Source: Micromonospora sp. NBC_00421 (lineage in GTDB: Bacteria > Actinomycetota > Actinomycetes > Mycobacteriales > Micromonosporaceae). From it: a stretch of 64,000 nt of DNA. Location of the stretch: contig NZ_CP107929.1 of assembly GCF_036017915.1 (NCBI RefSeq), forward strand, positions 4,406,001-4,470,000, read 5' to 3'. Below are positions 20,201 to 44,984 of this stretch, one piece after another. Both the position numbers and the translations under genes were made by a program. Position 1 is the first letter of the stretch; each line of letters begins with the position of its first letter. Under the pieces are notes generated by a model. It ran no database searches. It was not told the DNA's origin and was given only the letters and a program-made list of their open reading frames with translations.

Positions 20201-23200
20201 ACCAGGGAGGCGGAGCAGGCCGTGTCCACGGTCACCGCCGGGCCCTCCAGGCCGAAGACGTAGGACAGCCGGCCGGACATGACGCTTGCCGAGTTACCGG
20301 TGCCGAGGTAGCCGTCGAAGTCGTCCGCGCCGTCCCGCAGCAGCGGTAGGTAGTGCTGGCCGTTGGTCCCCACGAACACGCCGGTCCGGGTGCCACGCAA
20401 CGCGGTCGGGTCCACCCCGGCCCGTTCCAGGGCCTCCCACGCGGTCTCCAGCAACAGGCGCTGCTGCGGGTCCATGGCCAGCGCCTCGCGGGGCGAGATC
20501 CCGAAGAAGGCGGCATCGAAGTCCGGCGCGTCGTGCAGGAAGCCACCCTCGCGGACGTAGGTGCGGCCGGGCGCCTCCGGGTCCGGGTCGTACAGGCCGT
20601 CGACGTCCCAGCCCCGGTTCGTGGGGAACGGGGAGATGGCGTCCCGGCCCTTCTCCAGCAGGTCCCACAGGTCGTCGGGGGCATCGACCCCGCCCGGGAA
20701 CCGACAGGCCATCCCGATCACCGCGATCGGCCCGTCGTCGACCGCCCCCGCCGGAGCGGACGGCGGGGCGACGGCATCCACCGCGTCCTCGCCGGCCTCC
20801 GGCCCGAGCAGTTCGACACGCAGGAACGCGGCCAGCGCCCGGGCGCTGGGATGGTCGAATACGACGGACGGCGGCAGGTTCAGCCCGGTGGCCGCGTTCA
20901 GCCGGTTGCGCAGGTCGACCGCGGTCACCGAGGTGAAGCCGAGCTCCCGGAACGCCCGGTCCGGATCGGCCGCCTCGGTCCCGTCGTGCCCCAGCAGGAC
21001 CGAGACGTGCGTACGGACCAGCCGCAGCAGCGTCCGGTGCTGGTCGGTCGCGGGCCTGCCGATGAGCGCGCGGACCAGTTCGGAGCCGGTCGACGCGTCC
21101 TCGACCGGGGTGCGCTCCACCTCCCGGGCCGCCCGCAGCTCGGGCAGCTCGTCGAAGAAGGTGGTCCGCCGGGCCGCCGTGTACGAGGCGACGAACCGCG
21201 CCCAGTCCACGTCGGCCACGGCCACCAGGCCCTCGCCGCGCGCCACCGCCCCGTGCAACACGTCCAGCGCGGTTCCCGGCTCCAACGGCGTGAGGCCACC
21301 CCGGAGCAGCAGTTCACGGTCGGAGTCGGCGGCTCCGGCATCGAGTTCACGCCCGGCGGAGTCCACCGGCGGGGCGGCCCACGGCGTCCACGCGATCGCC
21401 GTGCCGGGCAGGCCACGGGCCCGCCTCTCCTCGACCAGCGCGTCCAGCCGGGCGGTGCCCGCCGCGTAGCCGCCGTGCCCCGCACCGCCCCAGGTTCCGG
21501 AGACAGAGGAGAAGACGACGAACGCGTCGAGCTTCAGCTCCGCCTCCGCCGCGAGGGCGTCGAGGTGCAGCGCCGTCGTCGTCTTCGCGGCGACGGCGGC
21601 GACGAAGTCCTCCGGGGTGGTCTCGGCGAGGGGGGTGAGCGCCACGGCGGGCGGGGCCACCACGATCGTGGTGGGCCGGTGCGCGCCGAGCAGCCCGGCG
21701 AGCACGTCCCTGTCGTTCGGGTCGCAGTCGACCAGGGCCACCCGGTCGGTGTCGCCGGTGAGCCCGGCGGTGGACGCGGCTGCCGGGCCGGCGAGCACCA
21801 CGCGTGTCGCCCCGTCGTCGAGGAGGCGGCCGACCAGGGGCGCGGCGGCCGGGCCGGTGTCCCCGACGACGAGGACGGTGCCCCGGGCCGGCCAGTCGCC
21901 GGGCGTGCCGGCGGCGCGGGAGCGCACGAGGCGTCGTCCGTGGACGCCGGAGACGCGTACGGCGACCTGGTCCTCGCCGCCCGAGCCGCCCACCACGTCG
22001 GCGAGCTGCGCGAAGGCGCGCTCACCGGGGGACGCCGGCAGGTCGACCAGCCCGCCCCACCGGTCCGGCAGTTCGAGGGCCGCGACCCGTCCGAGGCCCC
22101 ACACCTGGGCCTGCCCGGCGTCCGGCGTCTCGCCGGAGGACACCGCGACGGCGCCCCGGGTGACCGTCCAGAGGCGGGTCCGCGTTCCCGCGTCCGCCAC
22201 CGCCTGGATCAGGGCGAGCGAGGCGGTCAGACCGAGAGGTACGGCCGGGTGGCGCGCGTCCGCGCCCTCGGCGAACGCCAGCAGCGACACCACACCGGCC
22301 GAGGCGGACGCCGCGTCGTCCCCGGAGAGGGCCGGGGCCAGGAGCGTGGCGAGGCTGGCCCGGTCGGCGGCGGCGACGGTCAGCAGCTCGACGGACGCGC
22401 CACGCGCGACCAGCCCCCGCCGGACGCCCTCCGCCACCCCGCCACCGGCCAGCGCCTCGGGCACCACCAGGAGCCAGCGGTGGGTGAGGGGTCGGGGGTC
22501 GCCCGTCGGCAGCGGCTTCCACACGATCCGATACCGCAACTCCCCCACCGGGTCGGCACCCACGACCGTCGTGGTGGCGGAGCCGGTCGGAGTAGGTGCC
22601 CAATAGTGGCGTCGTTGGAACGGATACGTCGGCAGGTCCACCAACCGCGCGTTCGTGCCCGCGAACACCCCACCCCAGTCCACGTCCATGCCACCCACGA
22701 ACGCCTCACCCACCGACGTGAGGAACCGACCCCACCCGCCATCGTCACGCCGCAGCGACCCCACCACCACCGGCCGCACACCCGCATCCACCACCGCCGC
22801 CGACTCCAACACCCCACCCGCCAGAACCGGATGCCCCGAACACTCCACAAACCCCGAGAACCCGTCCGCCACCAACCGCCCCACAGCATCCGCGAACAAC
22901 ACCCGCTCCCGCAGATTCCGATACCAATACCCACCATCCAGAGCATGACCGTCGACCAGACCACCCACCAGAGAGGAATAAAACGGCACACTGCCCTGCT
23001 GCGGGGACAAACCATCCAGAAGCCGCGACAGCTCCCCCTCCACCGCCTCCACATGCGCCGAATGCGACGCATAATCCACCGCCACCCGCCGCACCCACAC
23101 ACCATCACGCTCACAGTCGGCTATGAACCCCTCCGCCGCCTCCACGTCCCCCGACACCACCGTCAACGACGGACCATTCACCGCCGCCACACCCAACCGG

Positions 23201-44984: not shown

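Follow-up and report, generated by a model that had tools for sequence, protein, structure and literature searches.

The window analysed here is a stretch of 64,000 nucleotides (positions 4406001-4470000 of the 7.23-Mb, one-contig genome of Micromonospora sp. NBC_00421) that carries a modular polyketide synthase (PKS) on its minus strand. In four regions of this PKS, the acyltransferase (AT) of the loading module and the ketosynthase (KS) and AT of modules 1, 2 and 4, the coding strand is written mostly with the keto bases G and T wherever the base is free to vary. We read the PKS stretch as five genes, the first of them split by a frameshift in the loading AT. Together they encode a KS-containing loading module (L), seven extension modules (M1 to M7) and a thioesterase, as assigned from Pfam domains, KS positions and orthology to the cluster of Micromonospora rosaria. 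Pfam detects KS, AT, ketoreductase (KR), acyl carrier protein (ACP), dehydratase (DH), zinc-dehydrogenase (enoylreductase, ER) and thioesterase domains, as in assembly-line (cis-AT) PKSs. The AT motif is YASH in L, M1, M2, M4 and M6, HAFH in M3 and M7, and TAGH in M5. The order from L to M7, YASH/YASH/YASH/HAFH/YASH/TAGH/YASH/HAFH, matches the tylosin-type order, and the system has the loading KS and seven modules of a 16-membered macrolide (rosamicin/tylosin-type) PKS. From its sequence, the cluster is taken to belong to the rosamicin/tylosin type, which is the predicted product class. The rosamicin PKS is described with eight modules in the excerpt of PMC12844328 consulted. Two orthologous loci served for comparison, one in genome G012 (cluster about 90% identical to that of the window, P450 93%) and one in M. 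rosaria (G088; P450 82%, module 3 77%). The AT motifs are equal between the orthologous clusters, and no change of product or AT specificity was seen there.

The four regions resemble genetic repeats of intense nucleotide skews (GRINS), which were reportedly first defined in a 2021 PNAS paper; to our knowledge, the cause that creates and maintains them is unexplained. Faster diversification of related PKSs is also ascribed to GRINS. We applied the GRINS criteria as set out in the consulted parts of PMC9899208 and PMC10394414: duplication (at least 500 bp at more than 80% mean identity to another region of the same PKS, over five 150-nt windows at a step of 30) and skew (thresholds of 0.15 for GC and 0.25 for TA), with BLAST matches over 150 replacing pairwise2 in the duplication step. 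Four of four regions were duplicated, over 1500-2970 bp, and all four lay far over the skew thresholds, with mean absolute coding-strand skews of 0.53-0.61 (GC) and 0.53-0.68 (TA); neither an unduplicated tract nor one of sub-threshold skew was found among them. The genes and tracts are as follows, with tract limits taken from composition and the region called by the GRINS criteria in brackets.

4063..44984 (outer ends approximate), minus strand: host PKS genes, with KS-containing loading module, seven extension modules and thioesterase
42256..43728, minus strand: GRINS tract 1, AT of the loading module with the KS-AT linker, from composition change points (called 42221-43720)
39250..41872, minus strand: GRINS tract 2, KS-AT of module 1, from composition and identity (called 38981-41860)
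34516..37126, minus strand: GRINS tract 3, KS-AT of module 2, a mosaic, from composition and identity (called 34481-36850)
22744..25408, minus strand: GRINS tract 4, KS-AT of module 4, from composition and identity (called 22451-25420)

A preliminary description of the window had proposed a search for the tract in related clusters. This recovered the same four tracts in G012, where four of four duplicated regions again pass both thresholds and are separately homogenised, and in M. rosaria it found an unskewed M2 KS and weakly skewed ATs.

The composition of the tracts was profiled in 500-bp and 100-bp windows, and third positions were counted in all eight KS-AT units. In 500-bp windows inside the tracts, GC skew on the plus strand runs from -0.41 to -0.71 and AT skew from +0.34 to +0.72, the coding strand being the minus strand; outside them, between 4 and 45 kb, GC skew never departs from zero by more than 0.15, and AT skew is at most +0.30. 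The preliminary description was right both in assigning G/T-rich, nearly C-free coding to the loading AT and to KS and AT of modules 1, 2 and 4, and in calling the codons of KR, ACP, DH and modules 3, 5, 6 and 7 C-rich. At four-fold sites the M1 KS has G 0.80, T 0.19, C 0.01 and A 0.00, against G 0.49-0.55 and C 0.38-0.45 in modules 3, 5, 6 and 7. Third positions of the M1 and M4 KS hold C at 0.02 (A at 0% in M1), and 0.94 of NNY codons end in T; in the KS of L, M3, M5, M6 and M7 these values are 0.45-0.52 and 0.04-0.08. The M2 KS, being a mosaic, falls in between (C 0.13, NNY-T 0.72). TTG encodes 38 of the 39 leucines of the M1 KS. The skewed ATs are milder than the KS, with 5-11% C at third positions. 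Against a null built from the ordinary codon usage of the same genes (1000 simulations each; skewed units M1, M2 and M4), GC skew reaches z of 26-31 and TA skew lies 15-16 standard deviations (SD) high, while in the four unskewed units GC-skew z is -0.4 to 0.8 and both skews stay within about 1.5 SD. The proteins are affected as well: V, G and S are raised and T, P, H, Q and A lowered in the tracts, and tract proteins rewritten in ordinary codons keep skews of about 0.19 and 0.30, compared with 0.03-0.06 and 0.04-0.14 for unskewed units.

Within the window the tracts share long blocks of identical sequence, and the M2 KS contains two patches that do not.

40541..41847, minus strand: KS block of 1307 bp, M1 identical letter for letter to M4 (24101-25407)
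38972..40116, minus strand: AT block of 1145 bp, M1 identical to M4 (22466-23610), running about 280 bp beyond the end of the skew
42236..43118, minus strand: AT block of 883 bp, L identical to M2 (34496-35378)
36053..36834, minus strand: KS block of 782 bp, M2 identical to M1 (40592-41373)
36832..36982, minus strand: unskewed, unconverted native patch in the M2 KS, by composition and identity; resembles the M. rosaria M2 KS
37127..37290, minus strand: unskewed native 5' end of the M2 KS, by composition and identity

The link of GRINS to gene conversion appears here as concerted evolution in two species. The M1 and M4 KS are 100% identical inside each species, window and G012, and 94.7% identical (5.3% different) between them. 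Over KS codons 150-426, 35 of 274 codons differ between the species yet are identical across M1, M2 and M4 in each, and 1 of 274 varies within species. The AT partners are M1-M4 and L-M2 in the window and M2-M4 in G012. Comparison shows repeated overwriting, by gene conversion and independently in each species, among the KS and/or AT blocks of the YASH (methylmalonyl-type) modules except M6. The M2 mosaic is common to both species and has the same edge at codon 149/150; thus the conversion into M2 is older than the species split, with the long block re-homogenised since. Across codons 52-103, the short 5' patch, 3 codons separate M2 from M1 in the window and 7 in G012. The two native patches are 0.87 and 0.84 identical in nucleotides to the M. 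rosaria M2 KS, against 0.56 and 0.66 to their own M1, and since these unskewed patches match M. rosaria M2 and not M1, M2 was a recipient. The proposal in the preliminary description that the tracts spread by gene conversion is therefore borne out by the species-fixed KS codons and by the mosaic. For the M1/M4 tail, 79.4% identity to the G012 M1 tail and 73.4% to the G012 M4 tail suggests copying from M1 to M4, too weakly for a claim. In the M. rosaria draft, KS1 and KS4 are each interrupted by a contig break, which is what identical repeats would cause.

The edges of identity and of composition largely coincide. With change points fitted to composition (likelihood intervals of 0 to 63 bp), five of seven edges agree within 25 bp: the M1/M4 5' edge (identity 41847/25407, composition 41872/25408), three edges inside M2 (identity 37128, 36971 and 36834; composition 37126, 36982 and 36832) and the L/M2 3' edge (42236/34496 and 42256/34516). 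The agreement within a few bases that had been claimed breaks down at the other two. At the L 5' edge, identity ends at about 43687-43713 and composition at 43728, up to about 40 bp apart, and at the M1/M4 3' edge (identity 38972/22466, composition 39250/22744) the two are about 280 bp apart, identity continuing into ordinary C-rich DNA. Conversely, skew extends through the M1 KS-AT linker (about 40.58-40.17 kb), which is poorly conserved across copies, and the M1/M4 and L/M2 ATs, all skewed, share only about 80% identity over their 3' halves. Skew and homogenisation are thus strongly overlapping but separable, and the view that the same tracts are both homogenised and skewed holds for most of their length but not for the linkers and AT 3' halves. 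The KS-AT linkers within tracts (about 43350-43710 and 40170-40580) are of low complexity, rich in Gly, Ser and Val, and carry indels between copies and species.

Where did the skew come from? Composition is ordinary in the M. rosaria M2 KS (four-fold G 0.44, C 0.45), and the four M. rosaria ATs are weakly skewed (C 0.20-0.24) and 89-91% mutually alike. Between this M2 KS and the skewed M2 block, none of the 47 four-fold C sites is kept (32 are G and 15 T) and none of the nine A sites (5 G, 4 T), against 69 of 76 G sites and 9 of 11 T sites; in total, C/A sites are kept at 0/56 and G/T sites at 78/87. The state of the skewed copy depends on that of the unskewed copy (chi-squared p 4e-7; for T sites, Fisher p 5e-5). 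In a control pair, the unskewed module 3 KS, C is retained at 74 of 118 sites. Second codon positions, compared between the M. rosaria M2 KS and the M1 KS, show 50 keto gains and 6 losses, and the commonest replacement is A>G (10 in KS, 13 in AT), followed by A>V (7 and 7). For window versus G012, the ratio of amino-acid to four-fold divergence stands at 0.90 for the skewed M1 KS, compared with 0.25 for unskewed KS. Set against an ordinary homologous KS, nearly every free coding-strand C or A has turned into G or T, and this extends beyond synonymous sites to many non-synonymous ones. Because G/T sites are mostly kept, C/A sites are all replaced and states depend on one another, the tract looks recoded, protein included, from ordinary shared ancestral PKS DNA rather than derived from an unrelated donor; the preliminary description's view of the tracts as compositionally foreign thus found no support.

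The keto content also seems to be maintained. In M1 KS, M1 AT and L AT, to which the test was confined because M2 and M4 are non-independent or mosaic, 67 of the 92 four-fold differences between window and G012 are G/T and 25 are other, against 16 G/T and 245 other (16/261) in unskewed modules 3, 5, 6 and 7 (Fisher p 1.5e-35). The corresponding G/T counts are 42/61 and 38/61 in the M2 and M4 AT (with linker) and 11/25 in the M2 KS. A passively decaying tract would have the unskewed spectrum, so the skew is presumably maintained, through exchange between G and T at constant keto content or through renewed import from other keto tracts. We infer that keto content itself, and not one mutation type or codon preference, is the maintained property, and that it is coupled to recombination. 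The other option in the preliminary description, some different reason for keeping the non-template strand G-rich, comes closer than a donor does, with the amendment that G and T exchange. C and A giving way to G and T, with free exchange between the latter two, amounts to a keto/amino rule, which fits no single base-damage process known to us.

Beyond the window, skew forms a continuum over 338 KS segments (not thinned for relatedness), and at least one tract occurs in 33 of 76 named loci. There are 119 tracts, 117 of which overlap a PKS match, and 112 of these 117 are keto on the coding strand; the remaining five have mirror polarity, with a C-rich PKS coding strand that in L084 is also A-rich.

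L084 601-1260, 1471-1920, 6181-6690 and 9541-10140: mirror-polarity tracts
L072 331-810: mirror-polarity tract

Four-fold sites in the PKS frame of the L084 (Streptomyces hainanensis) tracts hold C at 0.64-0.78 and A at 0.05-0.19. These tracts are only about 69% alike within that 10-kb contig and not clearly duplicated, and their status as GRINS is not established. Skew correlates with identity to the best paralogue (rho 0.60 for nucleotides, 0.65 for amino acids; 65 KS of the genome read, of 95 Pfam matches). Other large PKS loci of the window's genome (1.30, 1.43, 1.61, 3.04-3.21 and 3.67-3.74 Mb) have the same coding-relative polarity, mostly weaker, and in two KS of L125 (6558, 12074; G129) all NNY codons of the segment end in T, exceeding the window.

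Taken together, the tracts are probably a strong new case of GRINS, maintained by a DNA-level keto bias tied to gene conversion. The element class is already known, and what is added is comparative evidence on how GRINS form. As in other GRINS, the tracts are duplicated PKS regions with GC and TA skew, lie in KS-AT of an actinobacterial cis-AT PKS and are linked to gene conversion; in-situ recoding, G/T exchange and shared mosaic edges were not found in the consulted parts of the published GRINS accounts. The azalomycin F PKS likewise has near-identical GRINS common to two modules (3 and 6) of one assembly line, but there they span a KS-AT-DH-KR tetradomain, according to the part of PMC9899208 seen, whereas the window tracts stop at the AT and include the loading AT.

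How could keto content be coupled to recombination? In the tracts, TGG, GTG and GGT make up 25-31% of coding-strand trinucleotides and CCA, CAC and ACC 0.2-0.7%, compared with 6-9% and 5-6% in four unskewed units. The predicted folding of single-stranded DNA per 150 nt is -10.5 kcal/mol for the tract coding strand and -8.4 for the template, against -37.3 and -36.4 in unskewed DNA. RecA and Rad51 show a wider preference for GT-rich DNA. RecA monomers leave TGG repeats slowest, and at low RecA concentration stability is highest for TGG and lowest for CCA, in the sections of PMC3763553 consulted. Given weak strand folding, TGG richness and the hold of RecA on TGG, a conversion bias toward keto-rich copies would be a reasonable cause. 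A GT-rich, almost unstructured strand would be a better substrate for RecA filaments and pairing, keto-rich copies would convert others more often than they get converted, and the tract would be a self-reinforcing conversion element that equalises chosen KS and AT domains and alters their protein sequence. A RecA preference for the keto-rich strand is, as a tentative hypothesis, the likeliest cause. It is possible, with less confidence, that GRINS are self-reinforcing recombination substrates in a stricter sense, in which any coding-strand change from C or A to G or T raises fitness for RecA (TGG-rich, unfolded) and the donor role, amounting to biased gene conversion on the keto/amino axis and not the GC/AT axis. 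Once keto bases neared fixation, G and T would exchange freely, and proteins would be dragged along (A to G or V). A bias on this axis would permit rare mirror-polarity tracts such as those of L084, and NNK codons, which between them cover all amino acids, might account for the usual polarity while still allowing rare mirrors. No RecA explanation of GRINS was found in the literature searched, the original GRINS paper lying outside it.

Several observations weigh against this picture of maintained keto content driving RecA-mediated conversion. Homogenisation occurs without skew in two KS of L105 (11116 and 16264; own genome, 3.67-3.69 Mb), which are 91.4% identical in nucleotides with NNY-T of 0.11 and reflect either homogenisation or recent duplication without GRINS composition, and again in the M1/M4 tail; skew occurs without homogenisation in the linkers, between the M1/M4 and M2/L AT 3' halves, and in L084. 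RecA nucleation is no faster on TTG or Chi DNA in the consulted part of PMC3763553. TGG-type trinucleotides lie just about 3-8% above a synonymous-shuffle null in nine skewed blocks (z 1.4-3.6, the blocks not being independent; z 0.8-0.9 in two unskewed controls); whole-unit z of 2.9-5.8 fell to these values once homogeneous blocks were shuffled apart, and we count the excess as weak. Tandem TGG shows no clear enrichment over the same shuffle (z 0.0-1.4). As to recoding, the excess in amino-acid relative to four-fold divergence is slight in AT (0.76 vs 0.66), the direction of change assumes that ordinary composition is ancestral, and the converted part of M2 is compared with M. rosaria M2 as its unskewed counterpart, although in the window this block was overwritten from M1/M4, whose M. 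rosaria KS counterparts are unassembled. As to maintenance, G/T differences could also come from conversion by older, already diverged keto tracts; some KS differences are clustered multi-base changes at codons 278-304, which suggests some import from other keto tracts. Finally, among 48 singleton changes in the M. rosaria ATs, 27 are keto losses and 16 gains, and weak tracts may erode.

Transcription-linked, strand-asymmetric mutagenesis is also a possible origin of the skew. C and A of an exposed non-template strand would be mutated and gene conversion would spread the result; R-loops form readily on G-rich non-template DNA. The coding-strand polarity of 112 of the 117 PKS-matching tracts and the extension of the changes to non-synonymous sites fit this account. 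However, simple cytosine deamination predicts mostly C>T, and the replacements of C (32 to G, 15 to T) and of A (5 to G, 4 to T) depart from that; the later exchange of G and T, the five mirror-polarity tracts (four of them in L084) and the unaffected C-rich domains elsewhere in the same genes are left unaccounted for.

That coding-strand G-quadruplexes (G4) drive the recombination is unlikely. PMC11499132, in the part consulted, gives such a role as proposed for Borrelia vls and as demonstrated for Neisseria pilE. In the same text the vls cassettes, which are gene-converting sequences, have a mean coding-strand GC skew of about 0.52, equal to that of the tracts. In the sequences analysed here, skewed KS-AT units carry 4-7 G4 motifs (five units) vs 0-1 in two unskewed units. 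Yet the motifs do not exceed a synonymous-shuffle null in five of five skewed units (z -0.9 to 0.2), GGG lies below the null in nine of nine skewed blocks (z -1.2 to -2.7; two controls, 1.4 and -2.2), and G4 leave the TA skew unexplained. A G-quadruplex conversion element, with G-runs beyond what composition gives, was rejected, there being no excess of G4 motifs or G-runs over shuffles. The vls system itself differs in that its AT skew is close to 0 in those rows of the PMC11499132 table that were consulted, silent cassettes convert one expression site, and the genes are unrelated; in the window a silent cassette array with one expression site was not found, all copies lying inside PKS reading frames.

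Exaggerated leading-strand replication bias is improbable. Leading and lagging strands were called from dnaA at 5.83 Mb in the window's genome, with the terminus assumed opposite; tracts occur there in six of seven leading-strand PKS loci and in neither of two lagging loci read. Counting three further lagging-strand KS loci that were fetched additionally, none of five has a tract, but lagging loci are small, mostly of one to few KS. Worked by hand, again with the terminus assumed opposite dnaA, nine of nine places where a KS active site is keto-coded (23 sites in all) are leading-strand (in 8 of 26 one-contig genomes searched). Among the matches listed, however, ordinary KS sites are also nearly all leading (three exceptions seen), and since these control sites account for most of the pattern, we set the nine of nine aside as uninformative.

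The preliminary description had put forward a single donor module of foreign origin, whose mutational history differed and whose sequence gene conversion then spread; this is very unlikely. The near-identity of tracts inside the cluster and the role of M2 as a recipient would suit it; against it stand the dependence of tract states on the unskewed homologue, the variation of skew among orthologous clusters and over the KS continuum, and a near-match search, of a plasmid collection only, that returned 16 records at 72-80% identity, none covering more than 38% of the query. The same domains have strong skew in the window and G012, weak skew in the M. rosaria ATs and none in the M. rosaria KS2, so that the transition can be read site by site; this gradation counts against both a foreign donor and simple deamination, and it brings a recombination-bias cause within reach of testing.

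Selection on codons or translation, for example for slow keto-ending codons at domain starts, is scarcely credible, for while the effect is strongest at synonymous sites, amino-acid composition is altered too and homologous domains in other modules of the same genes lack it. Equally implausible is an assembly or polishing artefact behind the identical copies: copies of 0.8-1.3 kb are letter-identical and the loading AT carries a one-base frameshift near 43.13 kb, but skew cannot arise from assembly, the separate one-contig genome G012 has its own identical copies with 35 fixed differences, and the M. rosaria draft breaks in KS1 and KS4 as real repeats would.

The tracts are of interest to PKS engineering as markers of natural KS/AT exchange points. 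They bear on PKS phylogeny too, since KS and AT trees of the affected modules record conversion as much as descent.

The loading AT is one base out of frame relative to the near-matching M2 copy, in a G-rich stretch at about 43104-43158 (minus strand), and the G012 loading AT is intact; the frameshift is either an assembly error or real. An antisense gene was considered and rejected: long plus-strand open reading frames (ORFs) over the tracts are expected where the antisense strand is poor in T, and antisense stops number 14 and 16 in two tracts vs 29 and 22 in two controls. The genes flanking the PKS resemble a glycosyltransferase, two P450s, an aminotransferase and an ABC-F ribosomal-protection protein, whose top model is TlrC/CarA/OleB/SrmB at a score slightly below that model's cut-off. 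Farther along, an ORF at 55674-56585 (plus strand) has weak matches to CoaBC-type flavoproteins, and over 56041-56670 its coding strand is C/A-rich (skews -0.33/-0.32), the polarity opposite to that of the PKS tracts; the G012 stretch L089 holds a tract of the same sign at 16411-17100.

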